Virus record (IMG/VR): IMGVR_UViG_3300033552_000042
Span: 1-30,967 of that record
From: a virus
DNA length: 30,967 nt
Reading direction: 5' to 3' (one strand)
Positions 511 to 14,053 of the stretch are shown here, in pieces. Numbering within the stretch: the first letter of the stretch is position 1; the number at the start of each line of letters is the position of its first letter. The notes beneath the pieces were generated by a model. The model was not told where the DNA came from, did not search any database, and saw only the letters and a program-made list of their open reading frames with translations. The translations under genes were made by a program, and so were the position numbers.

Positions 511-1416
511 TTATATATTAGTTATTATGTTAAATCCTTTTGAAAAATCAACGTTATTTTGTATATCTTTAACCTCGAATAATGGTTTACCAGTGTATTG
601 GTCTTTAATTTCATATAGACTAAATTGTTTGTAAATTTCTTTATCGAAATTATATATTGTGTAAATACCATCTTCCAAAGATTTAGTTTGAGGGCCAAAC
701 ATCCCAATTGCCAAATCTTCAATATCATACTCAACCATTTCAATTTCTAACATCACTGGGTTAAAAAAAGTGTTGGTTAAAATTACATCTTGATTCGCGT
801 CACCAATGAATGGGATTATATTAGGTGTAGCTGAATTAGCTGAATTAGGTGTTACTGTCGCAAATACAAATGTAGCGCTATCATTAAAACGATAACGAAT
901 CGCTTTTTGATTACTATTATTTAAGTTTTGATTGATCGGTTCAGCTTTATTATTTGACGTAATAATTCTAAACAAATTCTTTATCTTTCTATCAATACCA
1001 GTATTACTAAGATATTCTATTCTATAACCAATTAACCCGTTATTTTGGAACTTATTTAAGAATTTATTATCAATTAAACTAAGATCAAAAACTAATCCTC
1101 TAATATTTGGTTGTGCTGACAAAACACCAACATCTATTAATTTAGTTCTAATTTCAATTGGTTTGATCATAATAGTATAAATACCTTTATTACCAAAACT
1201 AGTTGTTGGTAATTTTAAAGTATATAACCCACCAAAGATCTCTAAATTATTGATATTGTTAGGGTTATTGTTCTTAAACAATACTTCATCAGTCACTAAT
1301 TTAGAAATAACTTCATTACCTCTACTATTCCTACTTGGTGAATAATGTAAAAATACTTCTACATCAGATAGATCAACATCCGCACCTCTTTTAATACCAT
1401 AAACCCCGTTTGACAT
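511..1416 (-). CDS. Unknown protein, probable baseplate/tail component (301 aa)
   Basis: I do not recognise this protein. It is soluble-looking, with no signal peptide, membrane helix or cysteine motif. It starts MSNGVYGIKRGADVDLSDVE and has alternating hydrophobic/polar segments typical of beta-rich virion proteins, plus an Asn/Thr/Pro-rich low-complexity stretch near residues 190-205. It lies in the operon that begins with gp6, 31 nt downstream of the 233-aa gene, and its stop is immediately followed by the next gene. The leader before the ATG is A/T-rich with no Shine-Dalgarno sequence, like its neighbours. A structural role is inferred only from context. Confidence 0.8.
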   Translation of the reverse strand: MSNGVYGIKRGADVDLSDVEVFLHYSPSRNSRGNEVISKLVTDEVLFKNNNPNNINNLEIFGGLYTLKLPTTSFGNKGIYTIMIKPIEIRTKLIDVGVLSAQPNIRGLVFDLSLIDNKFLNKFQNNGLIGYRIEYLSNTGIDRKIKNLFRIITSNNKAEPINQNLNNSNQKAIRYRFNDSATFVFATVTPNSANSATPNIIPFIGDANQDVILTNTFFNPVMLEIEMVEYDIEDLAIGMFGPQTKSLEDGIYTIYNFDKEIYKQFSLYEIKDQYTGKPLFEVKDIQNNVDFSKGFNIITNI

Positions 1417-1447
1417 TCTATAAATTTTTTATTATTATCTTTTTATT

Positions 1448-2149
1448 TTAACCTCTAATTATGTTGAAATATCCGTTCCCATAATTTTCTAAATGGTCTA
1501 AACTATTCACTTCAGACATTTTTAACATGCGTTCCATTACAGTAGTATTCCCCCTATCAATAAATATATCATTTTTAGTTTCTAAAACATCTGTAACCCC
1601 AATTAAGTATTCTTCTTTATAAATTGCTTCTAACGAAGAGTTAAAATTGTTATTACCTTCTTGTTTAAATTCAAATGAAGTTCTGTTATTCGTGTCACGA
1701 TATAAAATCCCATTATTTTGGTAAATGGTACCAATATTTGGATCATTTTTAGCGTCAAATACATACTCAATCAAACCGTCACTAATATTCGTTATTCTAC
1801 TAACACCATCAATTTCATCACCTAAATGGTTAACATAGTTGTTTTTTTCAACGTCAAAATTTATTTGGTACTTATTAATTAAATCATACGTAGCTAATTC
1901 TTCGACCCTACTTTCCGTTAAACCACTAACATGAATGCTATTATTTGAAAACCAGGCTGAAATATCAGTATTATCTGGTCTACCAAACATATCATTCGAG
2001 TTTAATTTATCAAAATTAAGCACATCGTGATAAAATGGGGTATTAGTGAAAATACCCAGATTGTCTATCGTTTGTTCAATACTAATATTAAAAAATAAAT
2101 CACCTTCAGGTAAATTATTTAAATTAACTGTTCTTTTAATTAGTTCCAT
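1448..2149 (-). CDS. Unknown protein, probable baseplate/tail component (233 aa)
   Basis: An unrecognised 233-aa protein. Its ATG directly abuts the TAA of the upstream 282-aa gene (TAAATG), which implies translational coupling. The N-terminus is MELIKRTVNLNNLPEG. The sequence is rich in Asn, Asp and aromatic residues, without cysteines, transmembrane helices or repeats. The middle part (about residues 65-160) alternates short hydrophobic strands with Asn/Gly turns, as beta-structured virion proteins do. Membership of the gp6-led operon makes a virion role plausible, but no family assignment can be supported. Confidence 0.8.
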   Translation of the reverse strand: MELIKRTVNLNNLPEGDLFFNISIEQTIDNLGIFTNTPFYHDVLNFDKLNSNDMFGRPDNTDISAWFSNNSIHVSGLTESRVEELATYDLINKYQINFDVEKNNYVNHLGDEIDGVSRITNISDGLIEYVFDAKNDPNIGTIYQNNGILYRDTNNRTSFEFKQEGNNNFNSSLEAIYKEEYLIGVTDVLETKNDIFIDRGNTTVMERMLKMSEVNSLDHLENYGNGYFNIIRG

Positions 2150-2998
2150 TTATAATTCAATAATTTCATATAACTTAATAGTTAGATTGTTATTTGAGTC
2201 AACAATTATATTATCTGAATAAGATTCATCAATTTCATAATAATACCCAGTATTATCACGGTATAAAATATATTTTACATGTAACTTATTTACTAGGTTA
2301 GTTATTGATTGAGGAGAATTAGCAGTCATTAAATTATAACTAACACCGTTTTTAGCGTTATTGAAAACACCTCGCATAAATAATTCTTTTGGTAAACCAT
2401 TTTTTACCTCATCTTTATAATGATATAAATTAAACCCCTCTGAATATTCATCAACAAATATATTCGGATTTTTAATTGTAAACTTGACTGGAATATTAGC
2501 AACAGGTTTTGGTGTTCCAGCCAAATACCCACCGTTCTGATTTAAATATTCTGGTAACATTTTTAAAAAAATTGTGTAAAAATTAACTAACCTTTGTGAG
2601 GTTAATTTATCAGTATCATAAAAATTTAATCTTAAAAAACTTTTTTTAAACGCATTCTTACTATATAAAACATCTTTTTGATTAAAACCAATACTCTCTA
2701 AAGTACTAGAAGAATTAATAACCCCATTTGAAAGTAGATTTAAATTAATATTAATTTTATTAATATCATTACCATCTTTTTTAGGTGTTAACCTAGTCTT
2801 TTCATAATCTAAAATTGGATTAATACTTTTACTCTTCTCTACTTCAATAAAATCTTTTTTAATGGTGTCGTATTGATCTAGGGTAGAGAAATCTTCAAAT
2901 ATCGGTAAATTTATAAAACCACCATTTTTAATAGAATTTATATTTATTTTATAATTTTTAACATTCATAATCAGTATCTTTTTTAATTCCAATATCAT
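2150..2998 (-). CDS. Unknown protein, probable baseplate/tail component (272-282 aa)
   Basis: An unrecognised protein in the structural operon. The longest frame starts at 2998 and would overlap the upstream gene by 41 nt. An internal ATG at 2968 (starting MNVKNYKININSIKNGG) reduces the overlap to 11 nt and removes an odd hydrophobic leader, so I think the true start is 2968, giving 272 aa. A segment around residues 115-140 (KSFLRLNFYDTDK) is well structured, and the C-terminus is Asn-rich with beta-like alternation. No membrane segment or enzymatic motif is visible. Function is inferred only as tail/baseplate-associated. Confidence 0.78.
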   Translation of the reverse strand: MILELKKILIMNVKNYKININSIKNGGFINLPIFEDFSTLDQYDTIKKDFIEVEKSKSINPILDYEKTRLTPKKDGNDINKININLNLLSNGVINSSSTLESIGFNQKDVLYSKNAFKKSFLRLNFYDTDKLTSQRLVNFYTIFLKMLPEYLNQNGGYLAGTPKPVANIPVKFTIKNPNIFVDEYSEGFNLYHYKDEVKNGLPKELFMRGVFNNAKNGVSYNLMTANSPQSITNLVNKLHVKYILYRDNTGYYYEIDESYSDNIIVDSNNNLTIKLYEIIEL

Positions 2999-4634
2999 TA
3001 ATCACAACCCCACCACTATCTCTTGGGAACGTATTATAAAATAACCCGTAATTACCAAAAGGATCTTGTCTCTTTAAATTAAAATTAATGTTTTTATTAA
3101 TATAATGACAACCATTCAAAAAAGGATAGTTAGGTGAGTTTGAAGAAGCGTTAATCCCGATACTATAAATATCTCGCCATAAAAATCTACCATCACCTAA
3201 GTTTTCAGCATACTCTGGAATATCTCCAGTTGTTTGATCCCCTTGCTCGATATAATCCGATAATTCTCTAATTCTAATTTTATGATGTGGATTGTAAAAA
3301 TAACCTTCATATCTGTTACCCATATTAACACTAGCTTCATTTGCTGGGCTAATAATGATACCACCTAAATCTCGATTAATCGTATTAAATCTATGATTTA
3401 CATTAGATAATGTACGTTCAATTAAAGTATATTTATTATATTCAACTAAATCACCTAAAAAAGTTGTATCCGCTGAATCAAGCCCTACCTCAAGTGGCGT
3501 TGGGCTAGAAGTACTATTATTTATTTTTCTAATATCAGGTATTGAATTAGGGGAAGCAACATCATCTATGTAATTTAAATTCAACCCACTTTTAACCGTT
3601 GAAAAAGTACCGTTTGAATCCGTTTTTAATATACTTAAATAAATTTCAGTTAATGGACGATTTAAATTATCTGTCAATTCACTTATATCAATCTCTTCAT
3701 TTATTATGAATTGTAAAATGTTATCGTTGAAAATATTATTCGCAAACCCCATTTGGAAAACTTCATAATCATCATCTTCCATTATTTGCGAATATTTTGT
3801 TTTTATCTTTTTAAAAACTCGATAATAATATTCGGATGGTGACCCATTTACTAATCGACTAACTTTAGTAGTTGAAGTAATATCAACCGATGGATTAATA
3901 TCAATTAAAAAATAATTTTCTTTATTATCACCATTTTCTAACCCAGTTTTAAAGACAATGTAATCACCATTGAGTGAAGGGTTACTTAAATTAAATAATC
4001 TAATTTTATCACCTCTATTTAACCCATGATTAACTGGAGTAGTAAATCTAACCATACTACGATTATTAAATGTAACTACTTCTTTTTTAATCACTAATAA
4101 CCCAATACCAACTAGATTTGTTACTAATTTTTGAAACGGATATGTTATGGATATACACCAATTTTTAATGCCGTTCGTCTTTAAAAAACTAAAACTCTCT
4201 TTTTTAGGGTGCATTTCAATTAATTTACAATTAACTTTAGATGAGATAGTTGGATCGTAATAACCACACCACCCATTAATGTTAACCAAATGCTCTATAA
4301 TACTTTCTTTAAACGATAAATCATCATCATTCGTTAATAACCCATCTGATGGATATGATCTATCTCTAAACTCAATTTTATTGAAAACGCTTAAACTACC
4401 CTCACCAGTCGTATTACACAAAATATTACTCATTATTGGGTTAATAGTACCTGTTAATCTAAATAATGAACTTTCATTTCGCTCTTTATTAAATTGTTCC
4501 GAAACATTTAACACACCTTCAATTTCGTTAATTGGAATTTCTTTATTATCTTGATTAATTTCTAAATTAATGAAAGATTCTTTATTAATTGATTCTAACG
4601 ATTTAAATTTATTTAATTTTATCTTTTTACCCAT
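2958..4634 (-). CDS. Unknown large structural-operon protein (558 aa)
   Basis: A 558-aa protein with no family I recognise. Its start overlaps the end of the 1156-aa gene by 8 nt. The N-terminus is Lys-rich (MGKKIKLNKFKSLESINKES). Near residues 195-235 is a short beta-rich element (VRFTTPVNHGLNRGDKIRLF) of the kind seen in phage beta-barrel or tail-fibre modules. Asp/Asn/Gly content is high throughout and there is no membrane helix. By position it is a baseplate or fibre-network protein. It could be a receptor-contacting component paired with the upstream SprB-repeat protein, but that is inference. Confidence 0.8.
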   Translation of the reverse strand: MGKKIKLNKFKSLESINKESFINLEINQDNKEIPINEIEGVLNVSEQFNKERNESSLFRLTGTINPIMSNILCNTTGEGSLSVFNKIEFRDRSYPSDGLLTNDDDLSFKESIIEHLVNINGWCGYYDPTISSKVNCKLIEMHPKKESFSFLKTNGIKNWCISITYPFQKLVTNLVGIGLLVIKKEVVTFNNRSMVRFTTPVNHGLNRGDKIRLFNLSNPSLNGDYIVFKTGLENGDNKENYFLIDINPSVDITSTTKVSRLVNGSPSEYYYRVFKKIKTKYSQIMEDDDYEVFQMGFANNIFNDNILQFIINEEIDISELTDNLNRPLTEIYLSILKTDSNGTFSTVKSGLNLNYIDDVASPNSIPDIRKINNSTSSPTPLEVGLDSADTTFLGDLVEYNKYTLIERTLSNVNHRFNTINRDLGGIIISPANEASVNMGNRYEGYFYNPHHKIRIRELSDYIEQGDQTTGDIPEYAENLGDGRFLWRDIYSIGINASSNSPNYPFLNGCHYINKNINFNLKRQDPFGNYGLFYNTFPRDSGGVVINDIGIKKDTDYEC

Positions 4635-7600
4635 TATATGTTATTATTGAACTAAAACAACCATCAGGTGTTTTAAATTTTAATTTATCACCAATTATTA
4701 ATGCACCATACTCAAATGAAATTGATTCACCTAATCCAGCTGTATTCATTTTAAAAGCTGTTCCAGCTACGCTATTATTTTTATAGAAAGTATATATCTC
4801 ATCAGCAGTATTTGGTTGACTAACTAAGAATACATTCACCCCACCACTTAATGTGGTTCTGGCCATTATTGGTTCATCTGGCTGCGTTAATGTAATTACA
4901 TCATTAAACACTTGACCAATAGAGTCAGTAACTGTAACATAATAAGTACCACTACTTAAATTATTTAGATTCATATCGGTTTTAGAAAAACCAGTAGATG
5001 TAGTTAGAAAAGAATAAGGGAAATTACCTGATGTCACATCAATATTAATAAACCCATTACTATTACCAAAACAAGTTGGGTTGGTTCTATTCGTTAAACT
5101 AACTAATAATTCTTTTGGTTTATTAATTACTATTGGGTCTGAAGTTGAATAACTCATTGAAGGTAATCCACTATCGATTACACTTATTTGATAAGATCCA
5201 TCATTTAAGCCATTAAACATATGATTTAAGACATTATTAACCGTTGTTGATCCATTAGGTCCAGTTAATGTTATATCGTAAGGAGAGGTTCCTCCAATTA
5301 TATTATCAATATAAATTATTCCATCACCACCATTAATACTTTGTTCATCTATTTTACTTGTATCAACTATAATTGGTTGTGGACCTAAAACATTAAATAT
5401 TTTTCTAACCACATTCTTATTAAAATCACTAACGGTTAATATGTATTGACCTACACTTAAATTAATTAAATTATTAGCGATAATCCCAGTATTCCATTCA
5501 TAAGTAAATGGCGCTGTTCCTCCATCAATAATTATATTATTAATAGCACCATTTGATCCACCTATATTACTTACATTAGTTACCGAACCGCTAATAGTAA
5601 ACGTGTCAACACCAGAACCAAAATTCTTAGCGAAATACTTACTATTCATCTTATCTAAAGCAGTTGAACCTGGTGTACTACCAAAATAAAAGTAAAATGA
5701 ATTACCTAATGATTGGTGTACCGCTTTACTTGCGAATTCTCTATATCTGACATAATCAAGACCTAAGTTTGGGTTTAAGTTTGAATAACTTGACAGATTA
5801 CCAAAACCACTACTTAACCCAGTATTTGTGAACCCTGTTAACGTTGGATCGTTTAAGTATAATAATACATCTCTAATATATTGGTTTTCTATCTCAGAGT
5901 TATTGATATATTCATCCCTAAGAGCGTTGTTTGTTCCATATTCTTCTAAACCAACACCAATTTCACATAAGCGCTTAATATTTTGCCCTTGTTTAGAATT
6001 AATTGTTAATTTAGTACATGTTAAATTAAATAATAACCCATTCGGTGATCCATCATTAGCGAATTCAGTAACACCAAATTCTTCATCAATTTTTGGTGGG
6101 AGTTGGTATGAGGAAGGGGTTAGATATTTATTAATATTTGGAATACCTTGCCAATCACAATCAAATACTGATCCCAAATTATATAAATCCGTTGCAAATA
6201 ATAAATAACCTTTATTATGGTAAGCACCATAGAAAAGTTCACCATTATATTCTTTAATTATCCCAGAACCAATATTTACATTAGTGAAATCTTTAATATT
6301 ATTACTACCATTTATAATAGTGTCAACAATGTACATTTTATTACTAGCATCTAAATCACAAAATTTACCTTTCTCATTTTTTTTCTTTTTATATTTGATT
6401 AAGAATGAAAAAAGAGACCCATTAACCCAATCATTATAGAAGTCAAACTCATATACGTTAAGAGATTCGGCTAACTGAGTTTTAAAGCATTCATGAGTTA
6501 CATCACTAGAACTCCCATTACTATCAGATGGTACCGCTTTACCACCACAGCCAGGCGTATATATTTGTGACCCGCAGTTAATTTTAACACATTTTATACC
6601 TTTAAATGGGTACCAATCAATTACACCGCCAATACCAATTCCATTTAACCAACTTAAAAACTCATTTACAATTTTAATAACGAGTATTATGATACCGATT
6701 ATTATACATAGAATTGAGAATATGGGATTGAAGTCACCATCTAATTTATTAAATGGAAATGGGTTTTTAAGACCAACACAATTATCAACATCTTTAATTC
6801 CTACCATATGTCGGTTATCACTACAATTACCACCACAAGCACCTTGAACCCTAGTGATATGATTTTTAATAGTATATATTTTATTCCAATATAAATCCCT
6901 AAAATGCTTATCTGAAGTACTACTATCAAAACTATAATCCTCTTCAGAAATATCTTTTGGATTATGCGGAATTAAATAACTTGCTCTACTTCTTAATCTA
7001 CCAGAATCCCCACTATCGTCCATACTAATTTTAAACCTAACCTTAGCTCTAGTTGGTATTCCTTTAGTTGTATCATCAGTTGGTGTTAATTCCCCATATT
7101 CATTCGTAATCACGTAATCTAAATTCATTGGGATTCTATAAGCCCAGGCACCGTTTTCATCAATCACTCGGCCACCTTCAACATCAAATCGCTCTATTCG
7201 ACCATCGGGTGTTTCCCTAATCATAGCTATTGACCCCTCGGTAGTTATTGTTTCACATAATCGCCCTAAATCTTTTCTAGGCGCACAATTTTTATTAAGA
7301 CTATTTTTTTCATTATCACCAAAAATACTACCCATGAATATTGCGCTTGGGATAATTTCGTGACCCAAATCAATATCAACTCTAGTAATTCCAATCTCAT
7401 TGATCTCAGTATCACCCCAAAAAGGCATAACTGTAACACCTAATTGTTTTGATTTAATTTGTGATAAAGTATCTAAATTTTTACTCTCTTTAAATTTTGT
7501 TGTTGATTCAAATAAGTTTTTATTACTACCTTGTTCGATAAAATCATAAGGTCTTTGCGAATAAATACCAATATCTGATAAATCAGCGTCCATCGTTAAC

Positions 7601-8097
7601 ATATGTGTTCCGACTGGTATTCCAAAAAACATAAAATCACCTGAATCATTCGTAGTTGTGGTATATTTATAATACTTATCATACACTTCAAATAATTGGT
7701 CATTATCTAGAATCGCGTTTTTAGTCGGGAATGATCCCACCGAAGAATACCTATCACTAGTTAAATTATTCGCTAATAAATTATAACGCAAACCGTCAAC
7801 ATTTAAATCTTGTAGGTTTTTGTATGGGTGTAGTGTAGCTATATATTCATTATCAACATCATCACCATTAATTTTAATAAAGATAGATAATTTACAATTA
7901 GGCACACCTAATCCGCTATTAACAATACATCTTCCAGCAATTACTCCGTAATCACTAGAGAATCTGGTATAGACTTCTTCTTGACTTAATTTTAAGGATA
8001 ATACCTCTAAAAAATCAAAATCTTGCGTTAAGGCGGCTTTAATATATGTATCCCCACCATTTACTGAGGCTTTTATTCTAATTGTTTTATTCTCCAA
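4627..8097 (-). CDS. Large virion-type protein with carboxypeptidase-regulatory-like domain, membrane-like segment and three SprB-type repeats (1156 aa)
   Basis: Three regions can be read. Residues about 50-172 look like a carboxypeptidase-regulatory/CNA-B-like beta sandwich (GRCIVNSGLGVPNCKLSIFI at the start, DSGDFMFFGIPVGTHMLTMD at the end). Residues about 458-485 form a strongly hydrophobic helix (FSILCIIIGIIILVIKIVNE) flanked by a cysteine-rich stretch that includes CGGNC and PGCGG. Residues about 835-1072 contain three successive SprB-type repeats: GSNG...GGTAPFTYEW, GGDG...GGTSPYDITL and GNSNG...GNFPYSF, each ending with an L/G-x-Y-x-V/L-T/S-V-x-D core. SprB repeats are known from flavobacterial gliding adhesins. 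The gene lies in the gp6 operon, so it is likely a fibre or baseplate-associated surface protein. About 18 cysteines is unusual for a virion protein. The precise role is not known. Confidence 0.8.
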   Translation of the reverse strand: MENKTIRIKASVNGGDTYIKAALTQDFDFLEVLSLKLSQEEVYTRFSSDYGVIAGRCIVNSGLGVPNCKLSIFIKINGDDVDNEYIATLHPYKNLQDLNVDGLRYNLLANNLTSDRYSSVGSFPTKNAILDNDQLFEVYDKYYKYTTTTNDSGDFMFFGIPVGTHMLTMDADLSDIGIYSQRPYDFIEQGSNKNLFESTTKFKESKNLDTLSQIKSKQLGVTVMPFWGDTEINEIGITRVDIDLGHEIIPSAIFMGSIFGDNEKNSLNKNCAPRKDLGRLCETITTEGSIAMIRETPDGRIERFDVEGGRVIDENGAWAYRIPMNLDYVITNEYGELTPTDDTTKGIPTRAKVRFKISMDDSGDSGRLRSRASYLIPHNPKDISEEDYSFDSSTSDKHFRDLYWNKIYTIKNHITRVQGACGGNCSDNRHMVGIKDVDNCVGLKNPFPFNKLDGDFNPIFSILCIIIGIIILVIKIVNEFLSWLNGIGIGGVIDWYPFKGIKCVKINCGSQIYTPGCGGKAVPSDSNGSSSDVTHECFKTQLAESLNVYEFDFYNDWVNGSLFSFLIKYKKKKNEKGKFCDLDASNKMYIVDTIINGSNNIKDFTNVNIGSGIIKEYNGELFYGAYHNKGYLLFATDLYNLGSVFDCDWQGIPNINKYLTPSSYQLPPKIDEEFGVTEFANDGSPNGLLFNLTCTKLTINSKQGQNIKRLCEIGVGLEEYGTNNALRDEYINNSEIENQYIRDVLLYLNDPTLTGFTNTGLSSGFGNLSSYSNLNPNLGLDYVRYREFASKAVHQSLGNSFYFYFGSTPGSTALDKMNSKYFAKNFGSGVDTFTISGSVTNVSNIGGSNGAINNIIIDGGTAPFTYEWNTGIIANNLINLSVGQYILTVSDFNKNVVRKIFNVLGPQPIIVDTSKIDEQSINGGDGIIYIDNIIGGTSPYDITLTGPNGSTTVNNVLNHMFNGLNDGSYQISVIDSGLPSMSYSTSDPIVINKPKELLVSLTNRTNPTCFGNSNGFINIDVTSGNFPYSFLTTSTGFSKTDMNLNNLSSGTYYVTVTDSIGQVFNDVITLTQPDEPIMARTTLSGGVNVFLVSQPNTADEIYTFYKNNSVAGTAFKMNTAGLGESISFEYGALIIGDKLKFKTPDGCFSSIITYNG

Positions 8098-8112: not shown

Positions 8113-8433
8113 TTATTCTTTATTTATTTTTTCTAACCCGATTATATCATAATCTTCAACATTCTCAGCATCTTCAGTATCTTCAACATCAGCGTTTTTA
8201 TTACTTATTTTATTTTTAACTTCTATTATTGAATTAAGAATATTAGTTAAATCATTTCTTTTATTTAATACTATTGATTGGAATAACATTATTAAAATGA
8301 TTGAGATTATCACTGGTGAGGCTATTAATGTTAATACCAAAACCACTATAAATTGAAATAACCTAGTAATTAAATTACTAGGTTTATCATTATTTTCTTT
8401 TTTAAAATTATTTTTTACTTTACAACAACTCAT
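8113..8433 (-). CDS. Small membrane protein of unknown function (106 aa)
   Basis: The N-terminus is short and basic and contains two adjacent cysteines (MSCCKVKNNFKKENNDK). A long hydrophobic stretch at about residues 25-56 follows, with a proline at 40, wide enough for one long helix or a tight two-helix hairpin. After a basic KR pair (58-59), the C-terminal third is acidic (VEDTEDAENVEDYD). It sits between gp6 (14 nt away) and the 1156-aa SprB-repeat gene (15 nt away), so it is co-transcribed with virion genes. It might be a holin-like protein, or a membrane partner of the hydrophobic segment in the next protein. Neither can be shown from sequence. Confidence 0.8.
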   Translation of the reverse strand: MSCCKVKNNFKKENNDKPSNLITRLFQFIVVLVLTLIASPVIISIILIMLFQSIVLNKRNDLTNILNSIIEVKNKISNKNADVEDTEDAENVEDYDIIGLEKINKE

Positions 8434-8447
8434 ATTTATTTTTTTAA

Positions 8448-10256
8448 TTATTTTACTCTTACGCGAATATCACTTACTGGATTCTTTACCTCAAAAATTG
8501 AATTACCATCCGAAAATAAAGTATATTCACCCATTAAATCAATTTCTCTAGTTTCTTCATTAGTGTATGGTTGAGAGATTTCGTTTAATGAATACTTACC
8601 ACCCACTTTATTAAAAACCTTTAAATCAACAATATTTAGAACACCATTAACGTTATTTATTATTTCAATTAATTGAGATAGGAAAATATTTTCACCCATA
8701 TCAAATTTATTCACATCTAGGTAACTAATCACTCGATTTATAACTTCAGATATAATTTGCGACTTTGTAAATTTTTTATCAACCATTAAATCAATATCAA
8801 ACCCTAAATTAATTATTTTACCATTTTTAATTTGAACATAATCATTGATCATTCTGTAATCACTTAGGTATTCTGAAATATTATCTTTTAAAATATTTGT
8901 TGATGAATTTGTTAATTTACCTTCTGGATTAATCCCTAAAATAGCTACAACTATTTTATTTTGTTCCTCATAAACATTATATTTAAACGGTACTCCAAAT
9001 TCACCAGGCATCATTGCAACTCGACTTACATAATCTTTTATAGTTACAGCTCTATTCTGAGCTGAAAAATTATATTTTACAATGTTTCTAATTTCATTTA
9101 CAGATGGTTCATCCCTACCACCTAAACATGGTACTGGATTTGAAACTGTTAATGAATCCCTAACAAGGATGTTTTTCTTATTTACCGTTCCATTTACAAA
9201 AATATCAGATAGAATGTTATTAGTTAATGTCCCTGGCCCAATATTACTAGAAGAACCACCACCAACACGATATTTAATGAATAAGGTTGTATTTGGTTTA
9301 TGCGTAATACCTAATGATAAATTATTAATAAAATCACCTAATCTATTAGTAAAACCACTATTTAAATTAAATACGTTACTAATATCTTGATTACCACCAC
9401 CAAAAATTATTTTTAAGAATCCTCGGTCAGTATATTCAGTAATGAATTTTTTATCAACTCGGACCCATTTACCAGGCTTAATACTTGGATTATCACTAAT
9501 CACATTATTATTTTCAATAAATATTTTATCATCAGCTAAAGCTTCCATTTCATACCATTGATTTTCTTTATTAAAAAAATCGTTATTAGTTGGTGAAGTA
9601 GAGTAGTCTAACCCTTCTAGGGTTATTATTGATTCTACTGACAGTACATCTGAATCAGGTAATGTTACCTCTAGGAATGGTTTAACGTCTTGAGTAGAAA
9701 TAGTTTTTTTAAAAATTTTTGAAACACCATTGATTACAATTTCTCGTTTAGTTAATTTATAACTAACAATGGCGCCATTACCATTTATATTTGGAATAAT
9801 TATTCTATTTGGAACACCACCACTAGTAAATGGTGAGGAAAAATCAATATCATCAACAGTTTCAAATATTTTACCAGAACCACCAACTTGGGCTCCTCTT
9901 CTAATTATTGGTGCATATTCAATATCAAACGAATCACCATTAACTGGTACAGTCACTGAAAAATCACAAACCGTAATAGAGGGTCTTTTGCCAGGTATTT
10001 TCAACCCAAAAGTCCTAGCTAATGACAAAACAGAAGATCGTTCTTTAGCGAAGTCTATTTGTGTTTCTTGGAACATTCTATCGGTATGTAATGATAGTAA
10101 ATCAGTTACAGCAGCATTTAAATCAATAAAAACTGAAGCAACACTACTATCATTAAAAGAACTTAATAGGTTTGGATAGTATTGTTTAACGAAATTGATT
10201 AGCTCCGTTCTCGTATCATTAAAATTTCTACTAAAATAATTTATTTTTTTTGACAT
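8448..10256 (-). CDS. 6: Baseplate wedge subunit, T4 gp6 / J-like family (602 aa)
   Basis: This is a T4 gp6-type baseplate wedge protein; gp6 forms the dimeric ring that links wedges around the tail hub. The N-terminus has the family's signature helical segment (residues about 38-90: FIDLNAAVTDLLSLHTDRMF, then ERSSVLSLARTFGLKIPG), which corresponds to the 'one structural unit, then SVVSLAKQLGY' region of gp6 proteins. Near residue 400 is the second landmark, AQNRAVTIKDYVSRV. Length (602) is close to T4 gp6 (660). It is the first gene after a promoter-like TATTTATA box and the gp25 terminator, and leads an operon extending past the left edge. No oddities seen. Confidence 0.9.
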   Translation of the reverse strand: MSKKINYFSRNFNDTRTELINFVKQYYPNLLSSFNDSSVASVFIDLNAAVTDLLSLHTDRMFQETQIDFAKERSSVLSLARTFGLKIPGKRPSITVCDFSVTVPVNGDSFDIEYAPIIRRGAQVGGSGKIFETVDDIDFSSPFTSGGVPNRIIIPNINGNGAIVSYKLTKREIVINGVSKIFKKTISTQDVKPFLEVTLPDSDVLSVESIITLEGLDYSTSPTNNDFFNKENQWYEMEALADDKIFIENNNVISDNPSIKPGKWVRVDKKFITEYTDRGFLKIIFGGGNQDISNVFNLNSGFTNRLGDFINNLSLGITHKPNTTLFIKYRVGGGSSSNIGPGTLTNNILSDIFVNGTVNKKNILVRDSLTVSNPVPCLGGRDEPSVNEIRNIVKYNFSAQNRAVTIKDYVSRVAMMPGEFGVPFKYNVYEEQNKIVVAILGINPEGKLTNSSTNILKDNISEYLSDYRMINDYVQIKNGKIINLGFDIDLMVDKKFTKSQIISEVINRVISYLDVNKFDMGENIFLSQLIEIINNVNGVLNIVDLKVFNKVGGKYSLNEISQPYTNEETREIDLMGEYTLFSDGNSIFEVKNPVSDIRVRVK

Positions 10257-10334: not shown

Positions 10335-10715
10335 TTAGAATTTTATTATTAAATTATCTTTCGTTTCAAAAACATCGTCAGTAATTGTATAATTTATATT
10401 TACAACAGCAGTATGTTCTTCTAATGGAGTTTCGATTACAACTAAACTAGTAACCTTTAATTTTGGAATATATTTGGAAATCGCCGTATTTATTTCAATT
10501 TTAATCTCATTCAAACTAACCCCATCTAATTGATTAAAAATAAATTTTTTTAAATTGGTCCCAAAATCTGGTAAATATAATCTTTGACCTTTCGTAGTTA
10601 ATAATAGTAATAATAATTCTGATTTAATCGCGTTATTTGAATCGCTATTTAAATTAAGGTATTTCCCATTTACATCATCTTTAAAGGGGAATTCTATATT
10701 AATGTAATCACTCAT
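10335..10715 (-). CDS. 25: Baseplate wedge subunit, T4 gp25 / GPW family (126 aa)
   Basis: A gp25-like wedge component; gp25 in T4 sits at the sheath-baseplate junction and nucleates sheath assembly. The hallmark is at residues 40-60, TTKGQRLYLPDFGTNLKKF, corresponding to the 'T.xGER....P.FG..L' motif of the GPW/gp25 family. It is followed by the amphipathic segment and the final beta strands (VVNINYTITDD). The length matches T4 gp25 (132 aa). It is monocistronic, with a promoter-like TATTTATA box 8 nt before the ATG and a strong hairpin terminator at its stop. It lies between nrdA and gp6. Confidence 0.9.
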   Translation of the reverse strand: MSDYINIEFPFKDDVNGKYLNLNSDSNNAIKSELLLLLLTTKGQRLYLPDFGTNLKKFIFNQLDGVSLNEIKIEINTAISKYIPKLKVTSLVVIETPLEEHTAVVNINYTITDDVFETKDNLIIKF

Positions 10716-10781: not shown

Positions 10782-13097
10782 TTATGCTGAGCAACCTAAA
10801 CAGTCGAATGGACTATCTTCTGGTTTATTATCTTCAACGGATACTTTTTGTAATCCTAGACTTTTATCAGCAGAAATTTTAGGCTTGGTCTTTGTGTAAT
10901 AAACACCAGTTTTCAACCCTTGTTGCCAACCGTAAATTAACGCATTAACTAATTTAGATAAAGTTGGGTTATCCCAATATAAATTAAATGATTGTGATTG
11001 ATCGATGAATCGTTGTCTATCAGCACTTAAATTAATCATCGTTTTTTGAGGTAATTCCCAAATTGTCTTATATAAGAATTTAAAATCATTAATCCAATTA
11101 GTGTCATCAGTATATCGACCTAAATTAACCTCATTTAACGATTTAACATTTTTTATTTCTAAAATTATATCATCACATAAAATACCTTTTTCCTCTAAAT
11201 CTCTAACCATATGTTTATTTAACATTGGGAATGAACCTGAAATAGTTTTTCTAATTAAAGCTAAATCTTGTATTGGTTCGAACATTTCATTAACGTTAGC
11301 TAATGCTGCTGTTGACGCTGTTGGCATTGGAGCTACAAACATACTATTCGCTACACCAAATTCTAATACATCACTTCTTAACGCTTCCCAGTCTAATGTA
11401 GTTGGTATTTCTTCATCATATTTTTCAAAAACAAAAATTCCTTTACCAACATTAGTACCATCAATTAATTTAAGCGCTTCTTTAAAAATTGTATTTTCTT
11501 TTCTAAATTTAATTGAACCTTCAATAGCACCATAATAAATATTTTCGAATATTTGTCTGTTAGTTATTTTAGCTTCTTCACTTTCGAATGGAATTTTTAA
11601 AATATAAAATAGATCAGCTAATCCACAAACACCAATAGCTGTTGCTCTTTGGAATACACCACCATTAAATGAATTTTGATTAACCCACTCATTTTTATCA
11701 ATTACCCTATTCAAAGTGTAATTTAACCCAGCGGCCGCTTTTCTGATTCCCTCATAATCAACTCTACCGTTTTTAACAAAAGAAGCTAAAACTATTGATC
11801 CTAAACAACATTGAGCTGAAACAGTTGAACTAGTTTGTTGAACAATTTCGATACACAACTGAGCTGTTTTTATAATTCCGTAATTTTCTTGGTTATTAAC
11901 TTTATTTACATTATCAATATTTAAAACATAAGGAACCCCAGTTTCAGATTGTAAAGAACATATTTTTTCAACAACTTCTCTACAAGTATATTGGTGTCTA
12001 TCTAAAGATAATTCATTTTCACATTCAAGGTATTTAGCTTCAAATTCGTCACCCCAAAAATCATATAAATTAAATCCCATTGTTTTTAGAACTTGATCTG
12101 GACAAAATACTGACCATTTTTCATCTTTCATTAAACGTTTGTAGAATAAATCATTAATCGCAACCGCAATCATTAAATCTCTTGCAGTCGTTTCTTCAGA
12201 TCCTTCTTTTTTAACTAAATCCAAGAAATCGAATAAATCTCGGTGCCAAATATTTAAATACAAAGCCCCTTTACCTCTTCTATCTTCATTTTGTTTGAAA
12301 AATCTAAGATCTTCGTTAACCATTTTAGCAAACCTAATAATACCACCAGCTTTACCTTTATTATTGTATTCAGTATGCTTAGATCTTAAGTTAGAGGCCC
12401 ATAATCCAATACCAGCACCACTTTTAGACATTTGAGCAATAGATTTTAATGTATCGTGAATACCATCTAAACTATCATCCATTAATTCATTTACTGAGCA
12501 ACTAATCATAGTGTTGTTTAAAGTTCCACCGTTAGAGAAAACTGGTGTTGCAACACCGTATCTTCTACCAGTAAAATTTTCATATCTAGCGATGAATTCA
12601 TCTTTACTCTCAGATAGAAATAAAGCCACTCTAAACATCATTTCACATGGTAACTCAACCAATTGCCTTTTATTCTTTTTAACACCGTAAACAGTCATAA
12701 AACTACCAATACCGATGTAATCAAAAGTAAAATCATACGCATAATTAGGTTCAACATCCCATTTAGCTTGTTTTTCAAAAACATTATCTGATATTAACCC
12801 AGTTAATCGTTTTTTCCAAATTTCTATCCCAGTCCCTAATTCTTTTTGTAATCTTGAAGCGGTAATTCTCGCGGCAAATAACGAATAATCTGGATGATTT
12901 GTGCAATAGGATGCAGCTAATCTAGCTGCTTCTTCATCAATTTGTTTTGTTGAAATCCCGTCATATAATAATGTTTGTACTTCAATTGATATATTAGTAT
13001 AATCAACTTTTAATCCTTTAGCGGTACTTTTTAATCTACTTAAAATTTTGTTGGGGTTGAAAGCCACCAACTCTTCATTTCTTTTCTTAATTTTCAT
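10782..13097 (-). CDS. nrdA: Class I ribonucleoside-diphosphate reductase, large (alpha) subunit (771 aa)
   Basis: The catalytic subunit reduces ribonucleoside diphosphates to deoxyribonucleotides with NrdB. The N-terminus (1-90) is an ATP-cone (KIKKRNEELVAFNPNKIL). Visible landmarks are C200 in NTMISCSVNEL (first redox cysteine), C415 in QLCIEI (thiyl-radical cysteine) with E417, a second redox cysteine in SAQCCLG, the PMPTASTAALANVNEMFEP loop, the radical-transfer Tyr pair in TGVYYTKT, and a C-terminal CLGC dithiol. Residue 413 is Gln where the E. coli and human enzymes have Asn (the N-L-C motif). It lies 17 nt downstream of nrdB and is the last gene of its operon, ended by a strong terminator. 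It supplies dNTPs for phage replication in the host cytoplasm. Confidence 0.97.
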   Translation of the reverse strand: MKIKKRNEELVAFNPNKILSRLKSTAKGLKVDYTNISIEVQTLLYDGISTKQIDEEAARLAASYCTNHPDYSLFAARITASRLQKELGTGIEIWKKRLTGLISDNVFEKQAKWDVEPNYAYDFTFDYIGIGSFMTVYGVKKNKRQLVELPCEMMFRVALFLSESKDEFIARYENFTGRRYGVATPVFSNGGTLNNTMISCSVNELMDDSLDGIHDTLKSIAQMSKSGAGIGLWASNLRSKHTEYNNKGKAGGIIRFAKMVNEDLRFFKQNEDRRGKGALYLNIWHRDLFDFLDLVKKEGSEETTARDLMIAVAINDLFYKRLMKDEKWSVFCPDQVLKTMGFNLYDFWGDEFEAKYLECENELSLDRHQYTCREVVEKICSLQSETGVPYVLNIDNVNKVNNQENYGIIKTAQLCIEIVQQTSSTVSAQCCLGSIVLASFVKNGRVDYEGIRKAAAGLNYTLNRVIDKNEWVNQNSFNGGVFQRATAIGVCGLADLFYILKIPFESEEAKITNRQIFENIYYGAIEGSIKFRKENTIFKEALKLIDGTNVGKGIFVFEKYDEEIPTTLDWEALRSDVLEFGVANSMFVAPMPTASTAALANVNEMFEPIQDLALIRKTISGSFPMLNKHMVRDLEEKGILCDDIILEIKNVKSLNEVNLGRYTDDTNWINDFKFLYKTIWELPQKTMINLSADRQRFIDQSQSFNLYWDNPTLSKLVNALIYGWQQGLKTGVYYTKTKPKISADKSLGLQKVSVEDNKPEDSPFDCLGCSA

Positions 13098-13114
13098 ATT
13101 TAAACCTATTGTTT

Positions 13115-14053
13115 TTAAAAATCCATATCAGTATTAATAGTTAAACTATTATCCGATAATTTTGTGTATTCACTAACCCTTTTTTCGAAAAAATTATCTC
13201 TACTCGCTAACCCGATATTTTCCATATATTTTAATGGTTGCTTAACATAGAATTCTTTTTGTTGGTTGTATCTAGTTAATACATTATCTGTAACATATTG
13301 AACGTATTGAATCATTTTATCTCTATTGAAACCTACAACACCTTCACCAAAACAATCATAAATAAATTGCTCTTCTACTTTATAAGCTTCTAAAATAATA
13401 TCCCGCAATCTTTCTGGAGCAATTTTATTTTTTACGTGATTATTATAATAATGAACCGCGAATTCACCATGTGAGGCTTCATCTCTACTGATTTCTTCAT
13501 TCGCAACATATAATCCTTCTAATGATTTATTTAAATCTTTAAATCCAAAAATACCCGCAAACGTTGATGAAAATAAAATTAATTCCACAGCTGAGAAAGC
13601 AATTAGTTTTTCTTCTAAAGTACCGTTATCAATCCATTTAACTGCCCATGACATTTTTTTAGCTACTGTAGGTACTGTGAAAATTGCATTGAAAGCATCT
13701 TCTTTTTCCCTATCATTTTTAATGTAGTTTTCAATAATTGTCGCGTATGTTTCGTTATGAACATTTTCATTCATTAATTGATAACTGTAGAAGAATTTAG
13801 CTTCTTCTGGCATATCTTTTTCTTGAAGAAAATTTAAAGCTAAATTATCAGCAACAACCGCATCTGAATTAGCAAAGAAAAATATTAACATTTTTAAATA
13901 TCTCTTTTGACTTTCTTCTAACCCTTCAAAATTATCATTTGAAAAGTCACAAACTTGTGCTTTCCAGAATTGTGATTCACAATTTTTAAACCGTTCCCAT
14001 AGATCTGGATGTTCTAATGGGAAAATACTATACTTTTTTTTACGCATTTCCAT
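13115..14053 (-). CDS. nrdB: Class I ribonucleoside-diphosphate reductase, small (beta, R2) subunit (312 aa)
   Basis: The radical-generating partner of NrdA. All di-iron ligands are present: D64, E96 and H99 (ENVH), E157 (AVE), E192 and H195 (RDEASH). The radical tyrosine corresponds to Y103 in HNETY. The whole chain resembles the eukaryotic-type R2 lineage: FFFANSD, the VKWIDNGTLEEK region, EEISRDEASHGEFA, and the C-terminal FFEKRVSEYTKL...TDMDF tail that docks to the large subunit. The start overlaps the helicase end by 14 nt and the stop is 17 nt before nrdA, so expression of the three is coupled. The protein looks complete and active. Confidence 0.97.
   Translation of the reverse strand: MEMRKKKYSIFPLEHPDLWERFKNCESQFWKAQVCDFSNDNFEGLEESQKRYLKMLIFFFANSDAVVADNLALNFLQEKDMPEEAKFFYSYQLMNENVHNETYATIIENYIKNDREKEDAFNAIFTVPTVAKKMSWAVKWIDNGTLEEKLIAFSAVELILFSSTFAGIFGFKDLNKSLEGLYVANEEISRDEASHGEFAVHYYNNHVKNKIAPERLRDIILEAYKVEEQFIYDCFGEGVVGFNRDKMIQYVQYVTDNVLTRYNQQKEFYVKQPLKYMENIGLASRDNFFEKRVSEYTKLSDNSLTINTDMDF

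Follow-up and report, generated by a model that had tools for sequence, protein, structure and literature searches.

The window analysed here, a 30,967-base IMG/VR virus record taken at its full length, carries its main genes all on the minus strand, including T4-like replication genes (a DnaB-type helicase, UvsX and gp32), a class I ribonucleotide reductase and a block of baseplate genes. The genes for this reductase, nrdA and nrdB, are situated immediately upstream of the block (window 10782-14053), and the large subunit most resembles its counterparts in Tenacibaculum and Cellulophaga phages, suggesting a Bacteroidota host. The protein studied here is encoded within the block by a 1156-aa ORF beginning with a TTG start codon, and its surroundings agree with the initial annotation, which had described a protein with SprB-type repeats adjoining baseplate genes:

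10335-10715, minus strand: gp25-like baseplate wedge protein (PF04965, E 3.8e-11)
8448-10256, minus strand: gp6-like baseplate wedge protein, Baseplate_J region (phrog_219, E 2.1e-17)
8113-8433, minus strand: 106-aa ORF between the gp6-like gene and the 1156-aa gene, with a relative present in 70 loci
4627-8097, minus strand: 1156-aa baseplate-operon protein made of a conserved core and an SprB/Ig-like tail, with relatives of the core encoded in at least 590 IMG/VR stretches by core-profile scan
2958-4634, minus strand: 558-aa protein directly downstream of the 1156-aa gene with an overlap of a few bases, a conserved neighbour in 118 loci
511-2998, minus strand: three more conserved downstream genes of the baseplate block (282, 233 and 301 aa)

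The 1156-aa protein itself divides into a large core and a C-terminal tail, the parts of which are as follows:

5620-8097, minus strand: conserved core, residues 1-826 (39-row alignment, rows 31-59% identical to the window protein)
7348-7962, minus strand: N-terminal domain of the core, residues about 46-250, a carboxypeptidase-regulatory/CnaB-like beta-sandwich with inserts
6487-6741, minus strand: core insert, residues 453-537, a hydrophobic helix followed by a cysteine-containing stretch
5371-5607, minus strand: Ig-like domain D1, residues 831-909, containing the SprB match at 5485-5589
5089-5373, minus strand: Ig-like domain D2, residues 909-1003, diverged and without a Pfam match of its own
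4873-5103, minus strand: Ig-like domain D3, residues 999-1075, containing the best SprB match at 5005-5091
4630-4872, minus strand: variable C-terminal part, residues 1076-1156, poorly predicted and without a D1-D3 repeat

Regarding the tail, three tandem but mutually diverged SprB-type repeats had been proposed at residues about 835-1072, and they were recovered at residues 831-1075 (window 4873-5607). The SprB family profile PF13573 matched the whole protein with an E-value of 8.5e-7 and 28.9 bits, above the curated cut-off of 28, and a six-frame search located it at two places, in D3 (E 3.5e-9) and in D1 (E 3.1e-7), with no further SprB match elsewhere in the window and none in 14 control genomes. 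The third, diverged repeat was found by comparing family profiles, obtained by splitting a 31-row tail alignment into its domains, which revealed all three to be homologous (D1/D2 E 4.6e-17, D1/D3 E 2.3e-16, D2/D3 E 3e-13) at 22-33% identity, while the C-terminal 80 residues, used as a negative control, matched none of them. AlphaFold2 modelling of the same 31-row alignment yielded three Ig-like beta-sandwiches with nearly all pLDDT values above 90, so the 37-residue Pfam repeat is part of a larger Ig-like domain of approximately 75-95 residues. Whether generic phage Ig-like domains describe the tail better had also been raised. They do match, since the tail gives sequence-profile hits to T5 pb10, Hoc-like families and other phage Ig proteins and resembles generic Ig proteins such as RB49 Hoc and T5 pb4 in fold, but PF13573 is by far the commonest Pfam match in the tails, and the two descriptions are not mutually exclusive.

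The core was modelled with a pLDDT of 82.9 and a pTM of 0.82, and its likeness to known folds is limited to the N-terminal domain, the rest being barely covered by the fold search. This domain, which is matched by PF13620 in 17 of 34 members, gave a middling fold match to a carboxypeptidase N catalytic-domain entry (2nsm, Z 7.8, rmsd 1.8, 78 residues). No PDB match was obtained by sequence search with either the window protein or the core profile, and the PDB profile matches returned with the full alignment are phage Ig-like proteins, e.g., the Sf14 tail protein 9c2d. A strongly hydrophobic helix at residues 458-486 (window 6640-6726), kept in 87 of 90 members, includes a very hydrophobic stretch of 19 residues, with a mean hydropathy of 3.2. 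The insert carrying it (453-537) is absent from L131, L153 and the poorly aligned L062, the same three loci also being devoid of the tail. Nine cysteine positions (271, 464, 503, 508, 517, 537, 580, 694 and 825) each show at least 90% conservation across the core alignment; a number of them cluster right after the hydrophobic helix, and disulphides or metal binding are possible.

Relatives of the protein are widespread among uncultured phages. One scan delivered 65 loci with full-length or partial relatives, the full-length ones occurring in contigs of up to 362 kb, and the gene order gp25, gp6, 106-aa ORF, 1156-aa-type gene, 558, 282, 233 and 301 is kept in approximately 100 loci. Within each phage genome, the SprB matches fall almost exclusively into this ORF of the baseplate block; L032 (109423-109500), L099 (11943-12005) and L061 (16697-16750; all record positions) additionally contain another ORF, about 840-920 aa long, that SprB matches weakly. 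Searching a phage collection with the window protein returned one record, LR756502, matched in the tail region only, and no cultured relative. This record (LR756502.1, L070), a 642-kb uncultured metagenomic phage, encodes a 1675-aa ORF with 14 SprB matches (record positions approximately 515422-518520), and a core search in four phage records including LR756502, run without a positive control, gave no match. The proteins occupying the same slot in the cultured Flavobacterium phage immuto and in Microcystis phage Mel-JY01 were considered as relatives and discarded, as neither showed convincing similarity to the family. A changed genetic code was likewise rejected for L060 (6001-9600), where several frames are interrupted, with all three stop codons involved, most likely as a result of indel errors in the assembly. 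Six matches in MAG or SAG contigs were rejected as proof of the host because their labels are inconsistent: the bins of L148-L153 are labelled Clostridiales, Bacteroidales, Mycoplasmatota, Prochlorococcus, Paludibacteraceae and Wolfebacteria, a conflict indicating that some bins are probably contaminated. Overall, the family probably belongs to large, uncultured, T4-like phages infecting Bacteroidota.

Comparing the relatives, it is the tail that varies. PF13573 was detected in 32 of the 34 closest full-length members and in 61 of 65 closer tails (best E 7.1e-28), compared to none of the 16 tails of other members, which are up to 1424 aa long and belong mostly to a distant group. The tail is absent from five loci (L021, L078, L131, L153 and L062), the protein ending at the core, and in the four with a close neighbour (L021, L078, L131 and L153) the next gene directly adjoins the core. 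The contigs of L021, L078, L131 and L062, which are possibly incomplete, contain no such domain elsewhere. In the core tree, L021, L078 and L131 are nested among SprB-bearing groups, and the tree needs at least four changes in tail presence, and eight changes among SprB tail, other tail and no tail, counts that are approximate because they derive from a quick tree with long branches (L062, L153, L151 and L136). In some relatives the tail is replaced by unrelated or much longer sequence. The distant group (L140, L144, L146, L147, L148, L150, L145, L152 and L054) has tails of 700-1400 aa with almost no family match, possibly representing another adhesion module, and its MAG contigs are partly from rumen. 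Pairwise identity is consistently lower in the tail than in the core (28% versus 48% and 32% versus 53%), a faster divergence that may simply mirror relaxed constraint. The tail is dispensable and most likely a swappable module.

The history of the three domains can be read from their nearest neighbours. The closest domain was the same-position domain of another phage in 31 out of 31 cases for D1, 31 out of 31 for D2 and 28 out of 31 for D3, from which it follows that the three-domain array is older than the divergence of these phages. Among six cellular loci compared, SprB domains reached 47% local identity to D1 and 46% to D3 of the window, making a common origin with Bacteroidota surface proteins likely. 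The earlier proposal that the phage had captured a host surface module is therefore supported as far as a likely shared origin is concerned, but the positional inheritance of the domains speaks against a recent capture.

The reading of SprB repeats as a signature of gliding adhesins, which accompanied this proposal, was not upheld. PF13573 occurs in 64 of 247 Bacteroidota genomes, often with more than 20 matches per genome spread over many different ORFs, the repeat belongs to an Ig-like sandwich of ordinary type, and SprB repeats have been reported in other T9SS substrates beside toxin genes (PMC7073777). GldJ was matched at E 1e-30 or better in 50 of the 64 SprB-containing genomes, and gldJ is present in 47 of the 49 with strong SprB; this co-occurrence is explained equally well by lineage, as both follow lineage and T9SS. 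No NCBIfam match to a T9SS sorting domain (TIGR04183, TIGR04131) was found in the window protein, and L032 gave one insignificant match of 12.7 bits against a cut-off of 23. SprB repeats thus mark surface proteins of T9SS lineages and are no proof of gliding. In the PMC literature we found no paper combining PF13573 with a virus.

Taken together, we consider it somewhat better than an even bet (probability about 0.55) that the 1156-aa protein belongs to the baseplate of the virion and that its tail adheres weakly to the host envelope. Its place in the baseplate rests on gene position and conservation: the core (residues 1-826), encoded in the slot of T4 gp7, would build part of the baseplate, and the tail would form an exposed chain of three SprB-type Ig-like domains with a variable end. 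This chain might attach, weakly and reversibly, to envelope glycans or proteins of the host or to the surrounding matrix, and in this way would keep the baseplate near the surface until the main receptor-binding proteins engage. The loss, replacement and fast divergence of the tail fit such an accessory surface-contact module. The same observations bear on a purely structural role, which we regard as possible though rather unlikely, in which the Ig-like domains would be non-binding spacers or braces of the baseplate periphery, comparable to decoration domains. Ig domains of this kind decorate the capsids and tails of many phages, and the profile matches to T5 pb10 and Hoc-like families together with the fold match to RB49 Hoc point in this direction, but a needed brace should be kept, whereas the tail is lost in several relatives, replaced in others and diverges faster than the core; dispensable accessory domains would still be compatible with these data. 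The strongly hydrophobic helix is unusual for a soluble virion part and, like the missing sequence similarity between the core and T4 gp7, counts against a virion baseplate role. Together with the helix's conservation and the conserved cysteines following it, this hydrophobicity would suit a non-virion membrane protein of the infected cell, acting for example in superinfection block, its Ig chain being periplasmic or exposed at the surface. We hold this to be improbable given the invariable position within the baseplate block and, by reading, no obvious N-terminal signal sequence; moreover, T4 gp7, a known baseplate subunit, likewise has a predicted membrane segment (NCBI note), located near its C-terminus and weaker, with a hydropathy peak of 2.07.

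A connection to gliding would take the form of a tail binding to SprB-type surface filaments or moving gliding adhesins of the host, the phage being held or carried by the gliding conveyor. That gliding mutants, namely gldD and gldG mutants of Flavobacterium johnsoniae, have been reported as phage-resistant (PMC5682007) means that a link between phages and gliding is not absurd, and in F. columnare the phage receptors have been considered components of the gliding machinery (PMC7345892). The homology of the tail domains to cellular SprB domains, the almost constant presence of gldJ in SprB-rich Bacteroidota genomes and two rumen-MAG contigs titled as Bacteroidales or Paludibacteraceae, whose tails are without SprB, can be added on this side. 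Nevertheless, membership of a common family does not imply contact, the array of domains is ancient and shows no tuning to a single host adhesin, and the gldJ association is confounded by phylogeny and T9SS, making such binding very improbable in our view. Its boldest version, in which large Bacteroidota phages would dock baseplate SprB-type Ig chains on SprB-type filaments of their hosts, the phage would be retained by the moving adhesins of gliding bacteria or transported by them over the cell, and tail loss or replacement would follow hosts devoid of such filaments, is the least probable of the ideas considered here.

Returning to the baseplate adhesion module, the tail most likely represents a long-established, exchangeable adhesive module for contact with the host cell and not a recently acquired part of the gliding machinery, and gliding should not be concluded from the SprB annotation of a phage alone. 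The analysis brings to light an extensive protein family, linked to the baseplate of large uncultured phages and apparently not described before, whose members join a conserved core to an exchangeable adhesion chain with kinship to the surface adhesins of bacteria. Should surface contact be governed by the tail, the Ig-like adhesion module would sit at the baseplate rather than at the capsid, and tail type could help to predict the host lineage for hundreds of phages whose hosts are uncultured.

Among known systems, the fold of the core is shared by UniProt A0A8S5LA66, an uncharacterised metagenomic protein of Myoviridae sp. ctPuP5 (BFVD E 2.8e-82, TM 0.80, 32% identity). With T4 gp7 the protein has in common the gene slot after gp6 (T4 order gp6-gp7-gp8, with a small ORF in between here), a size of approximately 1000 aa and a hydrophobic segment, yet hhalign of the 39-row core profile against the single gp7 sequence gave a probability of 0.1 (E 0.53), and gp7 and other phage baseplate structures are absent among the listed Foldseek/VIA-align matches of the core, although a large model may hide single domains. 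The best fold match of the tail was the chain of the Aureispira grappling hook (VIA Z 9.7, rmsd 10.9, 265 residues), a surface protein that grabs prey flagella (reviewed in PMC11205867). This protein, GhpA (PDB 9flp, 9flu and others), shares the Ig-like chain and also a profile match (E 4.3e-6), but it is a cellular protein of 5898 residues, and the likeness, chain-like and at high rmsd, does not imply a common function. The SprB family is linked by a curated-score match, the motif, homologous Ig-like domains and tandem copies; the SprB gliding adhesin, however, is a very large secreted surface protein of gliding bacteria, whereas the phage protein, on a virus contig among baseplate genes, is limited to 1156 aa with only three diverged domains, lacks a T9SS sorting domain and has inherited its array within phages. 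Finally, phage Ig proteins such as T4/RB49 Hoc, T5 pb10/pb4 and the BACON/PKD proteins of gut phages likewise carry variable, often dispensable Ig-like modules on structural proteins, and a study of gut-phage adhesins that makes no mention of SprB describes binding to mucin or to epithelial surfaces by Ig-like modules of phage particles (PMC13370021). Ig-like adhesion modules on phage structural proteins are thus already known, and what is new here is a module of SprB type placed on a conserved protein of the baseplate block.
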